From the NCBI GenBank assembly GCA_937969445.1, contig CALBVZ010000031.1, forward strand, positions 1 to 50,919: 50,919 bases of DNA, in the 5' to 3' direction. A program made the position numbers and the translations under genes. The notes below the pieces were generated by a model. That model had not been told where the DNA came from. It made no database searches and saw nothing but the letters and a program-made list of their open reading frames with translations. Origin of the DNA: an uncultured Octadecabacter sp. Lineage in GTDB: Bacteria > Pseudomonadota > Alphaproteobacteria > Rhodobacterales > Rhodobacteraceae. Positions 18,367 to 26,308 of this stretch are shown one piece after another (within the stretch, counting starts at the first letter, position 1; every line of letters begins with the position of its first letter).

Positions 18367-19319
18367 ATGCGCAATGTTCCTTGCAATAGTATCGGTGCTG
18401 AATTGGACAATTGGGATGATCTTAGGGTCTTTTTGGCCGTGGCTCGTGCAGGAAGCCTGAATGGTGCTGCCCCCTCGCTAAAGATGGATCCGGCGACTTT
18501 GTCGCGACGGATTCACCGACTTGAAAAACGGCTGGGCGCGACGCTTTTTGTGAAGTCATCACATGGGTATTTGCTAACCAATGATGGCAAGCGAGTTCAG
18601 GATGAAGTCGAAGTCGCTGAGGGGCCGCTTATCCGCGCCATTGAACCTGGTCAGTCGGACCCAAAAGGGCTGTCGGGGCAAATCAAAATTGGGGCACCAG
18701 ATGGTATGGCAAATTTTGTTTTGCCACAGGTGACACAAGAGATAATGGCAGAAAACCCAGCGCTTGAAATCCAAATTGTTGCGTTGCCTCGTATCTTCAA
18801 CCTGTCCAAGCGCGAGGCCGATATCGCGGTTTCCGTTGCGAGACCCGCAGCAGGTCGGCTGTCTGTTAAAAAATTTCCGACTACGAATAACACTTGGCAG
18901 CAACGCAAAGTTACCTTGACGGAGCAGGGCCACTTCGCGATGTCGCTGATCTCAAAAACCATCGATTAATCGGTTACATTCCCGACCTTGTTTTCTCAGC
19001 GGAACTCGATTTTTCTGCATTGCTAAACGGCCAATCCCCAACCCTGATTTCGAATTCAACGTCGGTTCAACTAAACTGGGTGAGTGCAGGTGCTGGCCTA
19101 GCCGTTGCCCACGATTCTGCGATCCCTCATTTTCCAACGGTTCAAAGGATTCTAACGCGTGAATTCTCACTTATGCGAACGTTTTGGTTAATCCGGCACG
19201 AGGACGATAAAAGGGTAGGGCGGCACGCGCAATTTGCCCGAACCCTTAAGAGAAAGCTGAGCGACGAAATCTCGCGGCTTGAGAAGCAGGTCGTAGAAAA
19301 CTGCCAGCCGATGCGCTAA
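18367..19319 (+). pseudogene. LysR family transcriptional regulator, inactivated by frameshift plus stop
   Basis: HTH and first effector half in frame 18367-18969 (NWDDLRVFLAVARAGSLNGAAPSLKMDPATLSRRIHRLEKRLG...). The rest lies in the -1 frame (HLAATQSYLDGAGPLRDVADLKNHRLIGYIPD...). The break is at an A6 run (18868-18873), with an in-frame TAA at 18888-18890 in the downstream frame. Confidence 0.82.
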
Positions 19320-21565
19320 TCTCGCTTTTGCACATCCACCATAGCTGTGTGTGCGCTACATCCTTGTCCCAGTTTCGACGTGCCGACATCTATAGTCAGG
19401 ACATTTGGGTTTCCGTCGGGGTCGATTTTCTGCTCGGTGTCTCCGTACCAAGCACCAGTCGGTAAGGCGACGACATCCAACAAGATTTCAGTCGAAACGA
19501 AAACTCGGGCCAGGCAACGACCACGTGCATTGAATACCTTAACGATATCGCCAGTCTTTAGGCCACGTTGGTTCGCATTTGAGGGATGCATCACCAACGT
19601 TTCAGGCCGCGCACCTTCAACGTCCGCCAATGCACATTCCATCTGGCTATGCAGTTTGTCACCGGGCTGTGGTGAAACAAGGTGAAGTGGTGACTGGGGC
19701 GTCGCTTGGCCTAACCATTCACTTGGAGGTAGCCAGACAGGATGCCCGGGGCAGTCATCATATCCAAACCCATCAACGGTTTCGGAGAAAATTTCGATCT
19801 TACCAGACGGCGTGTGGAGCGGGTTGCCATCGGGATCTTCACGAAAGATCGTCAAAAATGATTTTTCTGGTGTGTCGACCTTCAACGGCAACCGAACCCA
19901 ATTTCGTTCACGCAATTCGTCAAAGTCAGGTACGTCGATACTCGTGGTCTGAGCGTGTTCTTCAAACCGTCGGTAGAGGTGACGCAGCCAGCCTTCAGGG
20001 TCGCGGCCTTCGGTAAAAGCGTCAGCAATACCCATGCGCTTGGCAAGTCCCGTGAAGATCGCGTAGTCGTCCTTCGCCTCACCAACTGGGGGAATTAACT
20101 GCGGCATGTTGAACAAATAGTTGTCGAGGTTGCTGCGTCCAATGTCTTCGCGCTCATAGGGGGTGGTTGCAGGGAAGACGATGTCAGCCCGTTTCGCCGT
20201 AGCCGTCCACCACGGTTCGTTAACAATAATGGTCTCGGGTCGTTTCCATGCGTTATTCAATCGATTCAGGTCTTGGTGATGGTGGAACGGGTTACCGCCG
20301 GCCCAGTAAACCAGCCGGATATCCGGATATTTCGATCGCTTTCCGTTAAAGTCGTACTCTTGCCCTGGATACATCAACATGTCCGCGATGCGCGCAACAG
20401 GGATGACGTCGCTAATTGGGTTCGTTCCCTGCGGCAGAGTAATCCCTTGCATCCGCTGTAACGATTTTCCGATGCCGCCAATTGCACCGTAACCGTACCC
20501 GACACCGCCACCTGGTAAGCCAATTTGCCCCAACATCGCAGCCAATACCGCCGACATCCAATAGGGCTGTTCGCCGTGCTCTGCCCGCTGAAGGGACCAC
20601 GCAACGGTTATCAATGTACGCGTCGTCGCGATTTGTTGCGCGATCTCGCGAATTTTCTCTGCCGGAAGCCCACATAGCGGGCTGGCCCATTCTGGTGTTT
20701 TGGGTTGCCCGTCACGTTCGCCCATTAAGTATGGCCTAAAGCGATCAAAACCTGTGGTGTAACGATCTAGAAACGCGCGATCTGTGAGGCCGTTCTCTTC
20801 AAGGTAGAATGCCAGTGCCAACATCAATGCTGTGTCTGATGCTGGCTTTGTTGGCATCCACTCGCATCCTTCGGGCGCATCAGTGCTTTGTGGGCCGATG
20901 TTGATACAACGTTTGCCTTGTGCGGCGAACTTTTCGAACCACGACCCAGTTTCATGTTCGGTAATGCCCCCCATGCTCACCTGAGAGTTCTTGGGGTTCA
21001 CGCCACCAAACATCAAAAGGGTTTGGGTGTGCTCTGCGATGGTTTCCCAGCTGTCTTGTGACCCATAGGTGTATTTAAGAAACGGGACACCGAAAACATG
21101 CGGCATGATTGCCTGTGCGCAGCCGGTTGAATAGCTGCCAAACGACGACACATAGCCACCGGCTGTGTTTAGAAATCTGTGAATTTGGCTCAATGCGTGA
21201 TGGAAACGACCTGCAGATGCCCAACCGTAGGATCCCCCGAAAATCGAACTATTTCCGTGATCTTTTCGAATACGATCAATTTCCTGGGCGGCAATGTCCA
21301 ATGCCTCATCCCACGGAAGTTCAACAAACGTATCACTTCCGCGATCAGTCGTGTTTCGATTGTCGAGCCAACCTCGCCGAATAGATGGACGCAAAACGCG
21401 ACTAGAATGATGGACCGCTTTTGGTAGAATATCCGAGATGCCTGTCGGCTCGCGATCGTTGGCAAAAGGTTTCGTTCCAACAATTTTGTTGCCGTCGGTC
21501 AAAACCTCGAAAGCACCCCAATGACTTGAGGTGACCTTGCCCGTTTTCTTTCCTGTGCACGTCAT
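19316..21565 (-). CDS. bisC: Molybdopterin-dependent oxidoreductase, BisC/TorA/DMSO reductase family
   Basis: 'WGAFEVLTDGNKIVG', 'SYGWASAGRFHHALSQIHRFLNTAGGYVSSFGSYSTGCAQAIMPHVFG', 'MNEPWW'-type and C-terminal molybdopterin-binding 'QPGDKLHSQMECA' motifs. Confidence 0.9.
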   Translation of the reverse strand: MTCTGKKTGKVTSSHWGAFEVLTDGNKIVGTKPFANDREPTGISDILPKAVHHSSRVLRPSIRRGWLDNRNTTDRGSDTFVELPWDEALDIAAQEIDRIRKDHGNSSIFGGSYGWASAGRFHHALSQIHRFLNTAGGYVSSFGSYSTGCAQAIMPHVFGVPFLKYTYGSQDSWETIAEHTQTLLMFGGVNPKNSQVSMGGITEHETGSWFEKFAAQGKRCINIGPQSTDAPEGCEWMPTKPASDTALMLALAFYLEENGLTDRAFLDRYTTGFDRFRPYLMGERDGQPKTPEWASPLCGLPAEKIREIAQQIATTRTLITVAWSLQRAEHGEQPYWMSAVLAAMLGQIGLPGGGVGYGYGAIGGIGKSLQRMQGITLPQGTNPISDVIPVARIADMLMYPGQEYDFNGKRSKYPDIRLVYWAGGNPFHHHQDLNRLNNAWKRPETIIVNEPWWTATAKRADIVFPATTPYEREDIGRSNLDNYLFNMPQLIPPVGEAKDDYAIFTGLAKRMGIADAFTEGRDPEGWLRHLYRRFEEHAQTTSIDVPDFDELRERNWVRLPLKVDTPEKSFLTIFREDPDGNPLHTPSGKIEIFSETVDGFGYDDCPGHPVWLPPSEWLGQATPQSPLHLVSPQPGDKLHSQMECALADVEGARPETLVMHPSNANQRGLKTGDIVKVFNARGRCLARVFVSTEILLDVVALPTGAWYGDTEQKIDPDGNPNVLTIDVGTSKLGQGCSAHTAMVDVQKRD

Positions 21566-21604: not shown

Positions 21605-21811
21605 AAATACCTGAAATTAGTCTATGTTCTTTTTGGTGCCGGTACTGTCAATCGATCTTATCTCGAAATACGCATGCTTAGGGAATACACTCGGTTTCTT
21701 TAATCGAAGGGCTTAATGCGCGAAGCCGTGAGTGTGGCGTTTCTAGCCCATCAAGCAGGCTAAAGTATTGACACGTTCCAATCTGTTGACTTTCGATCTG
21801 GATTGTCGTTT

Positions 21812-21831
21812 ATTTCTGTTATGACAGAAAT
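21812..21831. promoter_or_regulatory. 20-bp palindromic candidate operator (copy 1) overlapping the GbsR start codon
   Basis: ATTTCTGT-TATG-ACAGAAAT. The spacer contains the ATG at 21821. Confidence 0.75.
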
Positions 21832-22381
21832 TGCAGATATTAATGATTCTTCCGCCAAGGCACAGTTTGTCTTGTATTGGGGTGACATGGGCAGCCAATG
21901 GGGCGTTAACCGTTCCGTGGCGCAGATACATGCGCTGTTGTTTCTCAGTGTGAACCCATTGAACGCCGAAGAGATCGCAGACCAACTTGCGATTGCGCGT
22001 TCAAATGTTTCAAACTCTCTCAAAGAACTTGTCGGGTGGAAACTGATCCGCCGTGTTCCTGTTCCCAATGACCGCCGCGAACATTTTGTCGCTGAGGTGG
22101 ATGTGTGGGAAATGGCGATGCGCATCGCGCAGGGCCGTAAGGAACGCGAGATTGATCCAGCGATGTCAGCCATTGATAATTGTGTCCAACAGGCTGTGAA
22201 TGAACCAGGCCTTGATCCAATCGTTTTGGGCCGGATGCATGAGATGCAAGATTTTCTGAAGACTGCCGATCGCTGGTCTTCGCAAATGTTAAACGTACCT
22301 AAATCTAAGCTGAATATGCTGATGAAGATGGGCGATAAGGTTTTTTCTCTGCTCAAGTTGACAGGGAAAAAGACTGAATAA
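21821..22381 (+). CDS. GbsR/MarR family transcriptional regulator
   Basis: 'YWGDMGSQWGVNRSVAQIHALLFLSVNPLNAEEIADQLAIARSNVSNSLKELVGWKLIRRVPVPNDRREHFVAE' GbsR-type wHTH. Start placed at MTEIADIND. Confidence 0.88.
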   Translation: MTEIADINDSSAKAQFVLYWGDMGSQWGVNRSVAQIHALLFLSVNPLNAEEIADQLAIARSNVSNSLKELVGWKLIRRVPVPNDRREHFVAEVDVWEMAMRIAQGRKEREIDPAMSAIDNCVQQAVNEPGLDPIVLGRMHEMQDFLKTADRWSSQMLNVPKSKLNMLMKMGDKVFSLLKLTGKKTE

Positions 22382-22407
22382 ATTACGACCACTTTTTTTG
22401 CCCATGC

Positions 22408-22427
22408 ATTTCTGTCCATACAGAAAT
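22408..22427. promoter_or_regulatory. 20-bp palindromic candidate operator (copy 2) upstream of the DUF4166 gene
   Basis: ATTTCTGT-CCAT-ACAGAAAT: same 8-bp arms and 4-bp spacing as 21812-21831. Confidence 0.75.
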
Positions 22428-22455
22428 TAAAGACCAAACAGAATAAGGTGGCACA

Positions 22456-23097
22456 ATGAAAGCCAGTAATTTCTCAATTCATACCAATCCTGATGATCGG
22501 TTTGCCAAACTGGCGGGACGCAAGGCGTGGGACAGTTTGCGCCCTGCTGTGCGCAAGCGATTTGGCAAACGTTTGAATGGTGGCGTTAGCGTCACCTACC
22601 AAGGAAAAGTTGTTTCGATGCAGATGAATCTAGCTGGACGCATTCTTGCACACGCAGCCCGCATGATCGGCGCACCTTTGCCTTATGATTTGTCTTCTGT
22701 AGATCAACCCGCTGTGGTGACCGTAACCGAAGACATCGCCGGAAGCGGCCAGTTTTGGATCAGGCAATACGGGCGAAAAGCAGGTTTCCCGCAAGTTGTT
22801 CACAGCTCAAAGCGATTTGCAGGGTCGACCGGCCTTGAGGAATACATCGGCTACGGCATCGGCATGGCGTTAAACATTAGCGCCGAAGGGCAGGACCTTT
22901 TGTTCAAAAGTGATCACTATTTTCTGCAAGTCCTTGGGCGACGCATACGTCTTCCGCGGGCCCTAAGCCCAGGCGCATTGGTTATCGGTCACCATGACAT
23001 CGGGAACGGACAGTTCCGGTTTTCACTAGACCTGCGCCACCGCCTATTTGGGCAAATGATTTCCCAAGACGCAATATTTCAAGATGGAAAAGAGTAA
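22456..23097 (+). CDS. DUF4166 domain-containing protein
   Basis: 213 aa; C-terminal 'FRFSLDLRHRLFGQMISQDAIFQD' typical of DUF4166. Confidence 0.72.
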   Translation: MKASNFSIHTNPDDRFAKLAGRKAWDSLRPAVRKRFGKRLNGGVSVTYQGKVVSMQMNLAGRILAHAARMIGAPLPYDLSSVDQPAVVTVTEDIAGSGQFWIRQYGRKAGFPQVVHSSKRFAGSTGLEEYIGYGIGMALNISAEGQDLLFKSDHYFLQVLGRRIRLPRALSPGALVIGHHDIGNGQFRFSLDLRHRLFGQMISQDAIFQDGKE

Positions 23098-23100
23098 GCA

Positions 23101-24594
23101 ATGGACAACCCAATTCTCTGGAGCCTGATCTCGGTACAAGTTTTCATGGGCGCATTTGATACGCTTGTGCATCATGAAGGCACCGAGCGTCTGGCATGGC
23201 GCGCCTCACAAAAGCACGAGCTGCGCCTGCACGGTGTGCGCAACTTTTTCTATGCATTAATATTCATGACCTTTGCGTGGTTAGAACCCCACGGTGTATT
23301 CACCACCATTCTGGCCAGTATCTTAGCAATTGAGGTTCTGATTACGCTTTGGGATTTTGTCGAAGAAGACCTGACCCGCAAACTGCCCGCAACCGAACGG
23401 ATTAACCATACATTGCTGGCGCTGAACTACGGCGCGATCCTTGCGCTCGCTGCACCCTACCTTTGGGAGTGGGCATTCCTACCAAGCGGGTTAGTCCCCG
23501 TCAGTTACGGTTGGTGGAGCATCATGGCGACCGTATCTGCGATTGGCGTCGGGGTTTTTAGCGCGCGCGATCTATTGGCTGCGGCACGTAGTGACCGGCT
23601 TGACCGGGGTGATCCCGCCGCTTTGGTTGAAGCACTAAAACCATGCCAACACATCCTGATCACAGGCGGTACCGGCTTCATCGGTTCGCGTCTGGTCGAG
23701 GCCCTTGTTGCGGCCCGCCATCACGTCACTGTCCTCACTCGCGACGTGCAAAAGGTTGATCAGCTTAACCATCCAGTGCGTGTCATCGCCAACTTCGATT
23801 TGATCGAAAATGACGAGCAATTTGATGCCATCGTGAACCTTGCTGGCGATCCCGTGGCAAGCGGTATCTGGACGGCAAAGAAACGCGCAAGAATTATCAG
23901 GTCGCGTGTTGAAATGACCCGTGCAGTGCATGCGTTGATCGCGCGGCTCAATCATAAGCCAGAGTGTTTGGTAAATGGTTCCGCAGTTGGATGGTATGGC
24001 CTACAAAATGATGGCGACGACGCAAAGCTGACCGAGGAAGCCCTAGCGAAACCCGCCTTCGTCCATGATGTTTGTGAAGCTTGGGAGCAGGAAACTCTCC
24101 CTATATCAGCGCAAGGTGTGCGGGTCGTGATCCTGCGGATCGGGCTAGTTCTGGGTGTCGACGGCGGAATGCTTGCCAAGTTACTGACTCCGTTCGAATT
24201 TGGCGGTGGAGGGATTATGGGGAATGGCAGGCAATGGATGCCGTGGATCGAACATGACGACATGATCCGAGTAATCGCTTTTGCAATCGCGACTCAAAGT
24301 ATCGCGGGCCCCGTGAACGCTGTTGCACCAAAGCCAGAACGGAACGAAGCGTTCTCCCGGGGTTTGGCCGCCGCTTTACACCGCCCACTGTGGCTGCGGT
24401 TCCCTCATTGGCTGCTTTCGGGTGCGCTTGGTGACTTGGGGCGCGAAACCATGTTGGGTGGACAGCGCGTGGTACCGATGCGGCTAAGTGAAGTTGGTTT
24501 TGTCTTTCGCTACGACACTCTCGCACCAATGTTACGTAAGATTACTGGGTCGAAAGACACAGGTGGTACTAGATCTAAGTGGCGAAACATCTGA
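23101..24594 (+). CDS. TIGR01777-type NAD-dependent epimerase with N-terminal membrane domain
   Basis: Hydrophobic N-terminal ~160 aa, then 'ILITGGTGFIGSRLVEALVAARHHVTVLTRD', 'NLAGDPVASGIWTAKKRARIIRSRVEMTRAV', C-terminal DUF1731-like region. Confidence 0.87.
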   Translation: MDNPILWSLISVQVFMGAFDTLVHHEGTERLAWRASQKHELRLHGVRNFFYALIFMTFAWLEPHGVFTTILASILAIEVLITLWDFVEEDLTRKLPATERINHTLLALNYGAILALAAPYLWEWAFLPSGLVPVSYGWWSIMATVSAIGVGVFSARDLLAAARSDRLDRGDPAALVEALKPCQHILITGGTGFIGSRLVEALVAARHHVTVLTRDVQKVDQLNHPVRVIANFDLIENDEQFDAIVNLAGDPVASGIWTAKKRARIIRSRVEMTRAVHALIARLNHKPECLVNGSAVGWYGLQNDGDDAKLTEEALAKPAFVHDVCEAWEQETLPISAQGVRVVILRIGLVLGVDGGMLAKLLTPFEFGGGGIMGNGRQWMPWIEHDDMIRVIAFAIATQSIAGPVNAVAPKPERNEAFSRGLAAALHRPLWLRFPHWLLSGALGDLGRETMLGGQRVVPMRLSEVGFVFRYDTLAPMLRKITGSKDTGGTRSKWRNI

Positions 24595-24727: not shown

Positions 24728-26308
24728 ATGAACGCCCGTCCGAACATCGTTGTAATTGTCGCAGATCACGTTGCCTTTGCGGGACACTATGGTCAGGAGC
24801 GTTACGACTATCGTTGGCCATCGCTTGAGCGTATCGCGAAACGCGGGGCTTGGTTTGATCGGGCCTATGCTATCACTCCAGTTTGCACACCATCGCGCGC
24901 CAGTTTCCTAACTGGAAAGCGTCCAGATAAGCATGGGTTGCGTTGGAATTCAGAGTACCCAATCCCGCACAACCGCAAAGAATTCCGCGATGATGAAGAA
25001 CTATACGCATCGCATTTGGCGAAAGCCGGGTATGATAACTACTACTTTGGCAAGTGGCACTGTGGCGTCAATAAGACGGCCGAAGACTATGGATTAAAGG
25101 GCTGGAGCCTGCCTGAGTACGGAAATCTCTATGCCTGCGATGCTTATAAAAAATACCTCAAGAAGATTGGCGAAGATCAACCGCGCTGTCGTATCGAACA
25201 TCACTTGTTGCGTCCTGAATTGGACAACAAAGAAGTCTTGATGGACCCATCAGAGCCTTGGGATTACATGGATGGTGCTGGCGTTCTTTTGGGGTCGTCT
25301 GAAGTCAATGAGCAGTTCTTTGTTGCGAACCTAGCCTGTGATCAGCTGACGCAGTTGCGCGATACCGATCAGCCTTTTTCGATGGTTGTCAGTATGTGGG
25401 GGCCACATCACCCCTATTATCCAAGCCAGGAATTCGCTGACCTAATCAACCCGTCAGATATTCCGACCTACCCGAGCTTTGACGAAGACTTATCAAGCAA
25501 ACCGTGGCGATACCGAGTGCAACGCGATTTGCGCTGCCAACATCGCGCATTTGAGCGTTGGCCAGATTGGGAGACGTGGCAAAAGGTTCTTGCGCGTTGC
25601 TATGCTGCTGGCCTGCAAACGGATGCTGCCATTGGCCGAATTGCCGATAAACTTGACGCGCTGGGTTTGGCGGACAACACCTTGTTCGTTGTGACCGCGG
25701 ACCATGGGGACGGGATCGCTGCACATGGTGCCGGTTGGGACAAATACTCCACGTTCTCGGAAGAGGTCGGGCGCATTCCATTGGTCGTGAATTACCCTGC
25801 TAAGATCGTACCTGATCAGCGGGTAACAGCACCTGTAAGTCTGTTAGACGTTACCGCGACTATTCTCGACGCGGCAGAGGTCGAAGACCTATCGCATCCG
25901 CTGCCGATTGATGGCGAAAGTCTTGTTGGTATTGCAGATGGAAGTTGTGAACGCACAGCGCTGATCTGCGATCACTTCGGGCATTCCGGAGACATCAGCT
26001 TTCAGAAAATCCTGTATCGAGATGGATGGAAGTATGTGTCTGTTTGGGGGGACGACGACGAACTATATTGTCTCGACAACGATCCCTTTGAATTGAATAA
26101 TCGGCTTAACGATCCAGACACATTTGATCGCCAGAATATCATGCGTAGACAGATTGCAGATCATATAGTTGACCGGCGCGAAGTTAGACGCGCATGGCAG
26201 CCTGCTGAGTTTTGGGAAGACGGAATCGTTTTCTCTTCACCAGAATGGCCGCGCGAAGAGGTATTGCAGCTCTATAAGTTGCGCACACAACTTGCTGATA
26301 AATTGTAA
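24728..26308 (+). CDS. Type I sulfatase / alkaline phosphatase-superfamily hydrolase
   Basis: 'RPNIVVIVADHVAFAGHYGQ', formylglycine-type signature CTPSRASFLTGKRPDKHG, 'YYFGKWHCG', 'VVTADHGDGIAAHG'. Confidence 0.9.
   Translation: MNARPNIVVIVADHVAFAGHYGQERYDYRWPSLERIAKRGAWFDRAYAITPVCTPSRASFLTGKRPDKHGLRWNSEYPIPHNRKEFRDDEELYASHLAKAGYDNYYFGKWHCGVNKTAEDYGLKGWSLPEYGNLYACDAYKKYLKKIGEDQPRCRIEHHLLRPELDNKEVLMDPSEPWDYMDGAGVLLGSSEVNEQFFVANLACDQLTQLRDTDQPFSMVVSMWGPHHPYYPSQEFADLINPSDIPTYPSFDEDLSSKPWRYRVQRDLRCQHRAFERWPDWETWQKVLARCYAAGLQTDAAIGRIADKLDALGLADNTLFVVTADHGDGIAAHGAGWDKYSTFSEEVGRIPLVVNYPAKIVPDQRVTAPVSLLDVTATILDAAEVEDLSHPLPIDGESLVGIADGSCERTALICDHFGHSGDISFQKILYRDGWKYVSVWGDDDELYCLDNDPFELNNRLNDPDTFDRQNIMRRQIADHIVDRREVRRAWQPAEFWEDGIVFSSPEWPREEVLQLYKLRTQLADKL

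Follow-up and report, generated by a model that had tools for sequence, protein, structure and literature searches.

Conserved operator-like palindromes predict an autorepressor at a DUF4166/TIGR01777 gene cassette of an uncultured Octadecabacter

A regulator gene, a DUF4166 gene and a gene encoding a membrane-domain TIGR01777 protein were identified in the window, which is the whole stretch of 50,919 nucleotides analysed here from an uncultured Octadecabacter sp. Two palindromic sites lie among them (Table 1). The regulator carries a winged-helix MarR DNA-binding domain (Pfam MarR_2, 1.2e-12), and its best PDB match is Mj223 (1ku9, E 5e-10), the template used to model GbsR (PMC6207618). The identities originally proposed for the second and third genes are confirmed by Pfam and NCBIfam. 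On the opposite strand, the cassette adjoins a molybdopterin S/N-oxide reductase-like gene (19316-21565; TIGR00509 bisC family, below its cut-off). A sulfatase-family gene (24728-26308) with a sub-threshold likeness to choline sulfatase lies just downstream and is not conserved with the cassette.

Table 1. Genes and predicted regulatory features of the cassette, with positions in the window.
Feature	Position	Strand	Evidence
-35 element TTGACT of regulator promoter	21786-21791	+	58/58 orthologues have TTG exactly 35 nt ahead of the start-codon A; 48/58 have TTGAC
Outer left half-element TGTC (consensus TRTC)	21804-21807	+	15-18 bp left of site 1 centre: C 53/58, T 45/58, T 44/58; mirrors GAYA
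-10-like element TTTATT, 17-bp spacer, overlapping left operator arm	21809-21814	+	sequence and position logo; inferred promoter
Operator site 1 (predicted), spacer holding regulator start codon	21812-21831	+	exact 7-4-7 core in 52/58 orthologues
GbsR/CydE-type regulator of the MarR family (186 aa) with conserved Cys121; transcript probably leaderless	21821-22381	+	profile matches, orthologue alignment
Outer right half-element GATA (consensus GAYA)	21836-21839	+	15-18 bp right of site 1 centre; GAY also conserved beside site 2
A/T tract TTTTTTTG, probable promoter element of DUF4166 operon	22393-22400	+	columns 18-25 left of site 2 centre, W-tract plus G, 46 loci
Operator site 2 (predicted), upstream of DUF4166	22408-22427	+	<=2 mismatches in 46/58 loci, left arm TTTCT[CG]T
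Extended part downstream of site 2, GACC ... ACAGAAT (outer element and additional right half-site)	22432-22444	+	15-16 bp from centre: G 42/46, A 41/46; 22/24 bp from centre: C 36/46, G 42/46
DUF4166 protein, 213 aa, predicted beta-barrel	22456-23097	+	PF13761 E 8e-35; model pLDDT 90.5
Membrane-domain and TIGR01777 SDR protein, 497 aa	23101-24594	+	TIGR01777 2e-92; SDR part like SDR39U1 4b4o

The structural model of the DUF4166 protein shows a weak resemblance to nitrobindin/lipocalin-like barrels (best E 4e-3; TM 0.42 by query and 0.55 by target), which is taken as a lead only. The 497-aa protein ends in a domain with the fold of TIGR01777/SDR39U1 SDR proteins (4b4o, 3oh8); this domain matches human SDR39U1 with NADPH. 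Unlike these proteins, the 497-aa protein also has an N-terminal helical membrane domain, which is conserved and contains invariant His, Glu and Asp residues. No Pfam family above cut-off was found for the N-terminal ~180 residues. The invariant residues of this domain (23101-23640) are H24, H25, E29, E40, H44, D85, E88, E89, E99 and H103, including HHE-x2-E and E-x3-H types at helix ends. They are placed near the ends of predicted helices 1-4, on what would be a single membrane face, and a metal (di-metal) or cofactor site is possible on this model.

The 20-bp palindrome ATTTCTGT-N4-ACAGAAAT occurs as exactly two exact copies in the window, site 1 (ATTTCTGTTATGACAGAAAT) and site 2 (ATTTCTGTCCATACAGAAAT), as the original prediction had placed them. 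With <=3 mismatches allowed, these two sites are the sole matches in the window; dinucleotide-shuffled windows gave a mean of 0.17 matches, and none of the 100 shuffles gave two. No other exact copy was found in the 2.36 Mb genome bin, which is 74% complete, so that additional sites elsewhere in the organism are possible. At <=2 mismatches, 12 places were found in this genome versus 13 for a reversed-pattern control, showing no excess over background beyond the two exact sites. The genome-wide search suggested with the original prediction thus returned the two cassette sites and background. The relative G003 (two contigs, 99% complete) has one exact and one 1-mismatch copy, both at the cassette locus.

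A scan of the genome collection retrieved 61 regulator loci, and a start-codon-anchored alignment was built from the window and 57 close orthologues (n = 58). The core of site 1, TTTCTGT-N4-ACAGAAA, is exact in 52 of them. Its spacer supplies the regulator start codon, as had been claimed: the ATG at 21821-21823 opens the 186-aa MarR_2-type protein. The left arm is non-coding and nearly invariant across orthologues, so protein sequence cannot explain the conservation there. In the coding part, all 58 genes use ACA as codon 2, a codon that accounts for 62 of the 351 Thr codons in the rest of these genes. Given the invariant TTG at -35 and an SD-like sequence ahead of the ATG in 1/58 orthologues, the regulator transcript probably starts at the ATG and is leaderless, with the operator covering the -10 and +1 positions. 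Occupancy of site 1 would then block transcription initiation. The proposed autoregulation by occluded initiation is supported by the conservation of site 1 and is sharpened in this way to initiation of transcription. The site 1 promoter was missed by a scan for consensus promoters, since its -10 element lacks the required A at position 2; the cross-species alignment was used instead. At two loci (L017, 5001-5003; L060, 1716-1718), ATA replaces ATG in the spacer, giving a more symmetric palindrome (TTTCTGTTATAACAGAAA), and no ATG, GTG or TTG lies close upstream of it in L060.

Site 2 usually lies 16-34 nt past the regulator stop, with a left arm TTTCT[C/G]T and a right arm ACAGAAA in 46 of the 58 loci (<=2 mismatches). 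The left arm is often TTTCTCT, which makes the palindrome imperfect. The conservation of both palindromes in syntenic relatives, proposed as a check, is therefore found across the orthologous loci (58 for site 1, 46/58 for site 2). The A/T tract, TTTTTTTG or AAAAAATTTG, is located 18-25 bp left of the site 2 centre. It appears as a T-run or AnTn at a fixed position in the 46 loci, with a -35, an UP element or a bend as candidates. Site 2 was not recovered at <=2 mismatches in 12/58 loci, where DUF4166 often stands closely behind the regulator; because of this spacing, DUF4166 is likely co-transcribed with the regulator in several of these loci (e.g., Yoonia).

Conservation extends beyond the core palindromes. 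The TRTC and GAYA elements left and right of site 1 are symmetric and lie about one helical turn from each core half-site. GAY recurs in non-coding DNA to the right of site 2 (G 42/46 and A 41/46 at 15-16 bp from the centre), and both sites share a C and a G located 22 and 24 bp to the right of the centre. These outer elements may be contacted by the wing or by a second dimer.

Among the 25 genomes with an orthologue, an exact site is present at the cassette locus in all except G076, in which site 1 has one mismatch. In an independent survey of 121 relatives, exact sites were found in seven: the window's genome, G003, G011 and G021, the last two each with a GbsR paralogue, and three strays (G102, G121 and G144), around which no promoter-like context was seen by eye. 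Genomes with a related regulator have the site, and just 3 of the other 117 relatives surveyed contain an exact copy. Extra exact sites were also identified away from the cassette. Anderseniella G071 has one over the start codon of an unlinked DCC and Sdh-like-DUF4166 operon (L089), and the Hyphomicrobiaceae genome G075 has one ahead of an unlinked operon of a membrane protein and DUF4166 (L092). Yoonia and Loktanella have extra exact sites in the plsY-gshA interval, in which a GbsR paralogue is kept in other genomes (L085, L086, L091 and L093). One extra exact site in G082 (L090) has no gene assigned to it. Some genomes have these kinds of genes in cis and others have them after a remote site, and of all the computational evidence this pattern speaks most strongly for the regulatory assignment. 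The predicted control of the DUF4166/TM-TIGR01777 genes through site 2 gains support from the retention of this site, from the unlinked DUF4166 operons with extra sites and from the CydE footprint on the same palindrome type. The loci of the plsY interval (L083, L085, L086 and L127; L091 and L093) show TTTCTG-type palindromes with a GbsR paralogue that is flanked by plsY and genes for small membrane proteins and has a glutamate-cysteine-ligase-like gene nearby; in Yoonia and Loktanella the site is kept there with no evident adjacent paralogue.

MarR-type genes often adjoin unrelated genes, and the two sites could be bound by another regulator while the MarR protein acts elsewhere or on another motif. 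However, the sites co-occur with the present regulator and are nearly absent from the remaining relatives surveyed. The operator variant also follows the regulator group, being TTTCAGT-N4-ACTGAAA in L082 and of TTTCAG type in most cyd loci, and the homologue CydE protects the same type of palindrome (PMC6096048). Binding by another regulator thus appears quite improbable. The palindromes might otherwise act in translational control, as RNA hairpins hiding the start codon or ribosome site, since site 1 could on paper form an 8-bp stem that places AUG in its loop, and site 2 folds as a stem. Folding is, however, no better than that of shuffled sequences (z -0.47 for site 1 and -0.92 for site 2), the minimum-energy fold at site 1 is not the hairpin, and given the -35/-10 promoter the left arm of site 1 would be untranscribed. 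At site 2, TTTCTCT opposite ACAGAAA breaks the stem yet is conserved, and CydE binds duplex DNA of the same type (PMC6096048). The hairpin explanation is not supported by the folding scores, and we consider it very improbable.

In a tree of 92 regulators, cydAB-linked members form a clade with support of 100/100 and plsY-linked members a clade with 100/99, and DUF4166-linked members fall in several other clades. cydAB is absent from the gene neighbourhoods of the orthologue clusters. Of the features of the CydE/CioR group, a TTTC[AT]G-type 7-4-7 palindrome in the promoter is present at the cassette locus, and adjacent cydAB is not. GbsR/CydE-type genes lie directly ahead of cydAB at L084, L087, L088, L123-L126 and L130, in several alphaproteobacterial families. 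Apart from L130, each of these has a palindrome of the TTTCAG or TTTCTG type that matches or resembles the CydE footprint; that of L087 is identical to the CydE palindrome, and those of L084 and L123-L126 are close.

The closest characterised relative of the regulator is CydE, a GbsR-type cytochrome bd repressor, not the choline-sensing GbsR. The original prediction is borne out in calling the regulator GbsR-type, as the MarR_2 and Mj223 matches indicate, but its reference to the choline/betaine group does not stand, with CydE and CioR being nearer. A choline/betaine-responsive GbsR/CudC regulator, with the choline-sulfatase-like gene in its unit, is scarcely plausible: CudC is the top NCBIfam match (E 2e-11) and the adjacent sulfatase matches choline-sulfatase TIGR03417, but they score 43.8 bits against a cut-off of 218 and 171 against 433, respectively, the sulfatase is not a conserved neighbour, and the aromatic cage that defines the osmostress group is missing in CydE-type proteins (PMC6207618). 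This candidate was rejected on the CudC score and the gene context. No betaine synthesis or Opu transporter genes adjoin the cassette, whose conserved neighbours are DUF4166 with TM-TIGR01777 or DCC/Sdh-DUF4166.

The composition of the cassette varies among lineages. In most roseobacters and in Roseibium, the conserved unit is regulator, DUF4166 and TM-TIGR01777. In relatives from Litoreibacter, Loktanella and Roseobacter, the third place is taken by DCC (DUF393) and an Sdh-like-DUF4166 fusion, and in Yoonia the regulator and DUF4166 stand alone, followed by unrelated genes. The DUF4166/TIGR01777 arrangement proposed originally holds for most roseobacters and Roseibium; elsewhere the predicted target set has DCC and Sdh-DUF4166, or a polyketide-cyclase-like membrane protein, in place of TM-TIGR01777. 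The flanking genes of the cassette vary between loci, a close regulator was found in 2 of 19 surveyed same-genus genomes, and Stappiaceae nest within the roseobacters in the regulator tree. For these reasons, the unit (21786-24594) has probably moved horizontally as a cassette.

Collectively, a GbsR/CydE-type autorepressor that acts at both sites, on its own gene and on the DUF4166/TM-TIGR01777 operon, is the very likely explanation. The operator and autorepressor assignment, predicted from conservation, is well supported. The regulator would bind TTTCTGT-N4-ACAGAAA as a dimer. At site 1, the bound protein would cover the -10 element and the transcription start of its own leaderless gene, switching off its own transcription, and at site 2 it would cover the promoter of the DUF4166/TM-TIGR01777 operon. 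Some signal would release it, and the regulator and the module would be switched on together. The points against this explanation are the imperfect site 2, for whose promoter no -10 element could be assigned, its non-recovery in 12/58 loci, the exceptions to Cys121 and the ATA in L017 and L060.

Cys121 is present in 56/58 orthologues and in most of the other tested DUF4166-linked regulators, including L082, and in none of the cydAB- or plsY-linked paralogues. It is missing in both Novosphingobium orthologues, which precede a polyketide-cyclase-like membrane protein, and in L107 and L108, which keep the site. The conserved Cys121 suggests thiol sensing, and its oxidation or ligation would be the leading candidate signal; a thiol switch is our most economical guess. 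The module, made up of the barrel protein and a membrane-anchored NAD(P) SDR, probably works as a redox or lipid-modifying unit associated with the membrane, with a DCC thiol-oxidoreductase and a saccharopine-dehydrogenase-like fusion as the counterpart elsewhere. More speculatively, and in our judgement rather unlikely, the DUF4166-linked regulators would form a redox-sensing GbsR branch with a Cys121 thiol switch, controlling an undescribed membrane redox-stress or lipid-repair system. Its components may include the barrel protein, the DCC thiol-oxidoreductase, the NAD(P) Rossmann enzymes and the new membrane domain with a possible di-metal site.

In the literature searched, DUF4166 was named in no paper found. 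Nothing was found there on GbsR with operator or autoregulation, TIGR01777 or DUF393 with saccharopine dehydrogenase, nor on control of the DUF4166/TIGR01777/DCC module. The main text of PMC6207618 contains neither 'DUF' nor 'epimerase'. The kind of regulation is already known from GbsR/CydE autorepressors and leaderless repressors; the interesting part is the target module with its signal and chemistry, which are unreported in the literature searched. A widespread uncharacterised gene set is now tied to a specific predicted operator and repressor, opening the DUF4166 inducer and regulon to ordinary genetics in cultivated roseobacters. The CydE operator type is extended to regulators of a different target module. 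A start-codon-embedded operator in a probably leaderless gene is kept over several alphaproteobacterial families, and the site 1 segment cleanly illustrates how operator, promoter and coding sequence can be combined in a single stretch of DNA.

Leaderless autorepressor genes include those of AcuR, TetR of Tn1721 and lambda CI. In Rhodobacter sphaeroides acuR, the leaderless start was experimentally mapped, and the gene is autoregulated through an inverted-repeat operator that overlaps the promoter (PMC3017554). AcuR has the leaderless autorepressor design predicted for the present regulator, and both occur in Rhodobacteraceae. Unlike it, AcuR is a TetR-family protein with the operator TAATAGAC-N6-GTCTATTA, responds to acrylate and controls DMSP genes (PMC3017554). 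GbsR, OpcR and OpuAR of Bacillus are repressors of the same GbsR subfamily of MarR regulators, but they sense choline or betaine by an aromatic cage, which defines the osmostress group, and have osmostress target genes; CydE-type proteins are without the cage (PMC6207618). CydE of Alishewanella sp. WH16-1 belongs to the same protein family as the present regulator and is an autorepressor of cydEAB. Its DNase I footprint, TATTTCAGAAATTTCTGAAAGTTCA, was also bound as an isolated site and contains TTTCAGA-N4-TCTGAAA (PMC6096048). The 7-4-7 layout and the TTTC-N-G half-site are common to the CydE and present operators, and the CydE arms have A for T at positions 5 and 7. The target of CydE is cytochrome bd, with derepression by sulfate reported (PMC6096048), whereas the present regulator adjoins DUF4166. 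CioR of Chromobacterium violaceum is a second cytochrome-bd autorepressor of the CydE kind; its operon encodes cytochrome bd, and an indirect cyanide response through metals was proposed for it (PMC11837568).
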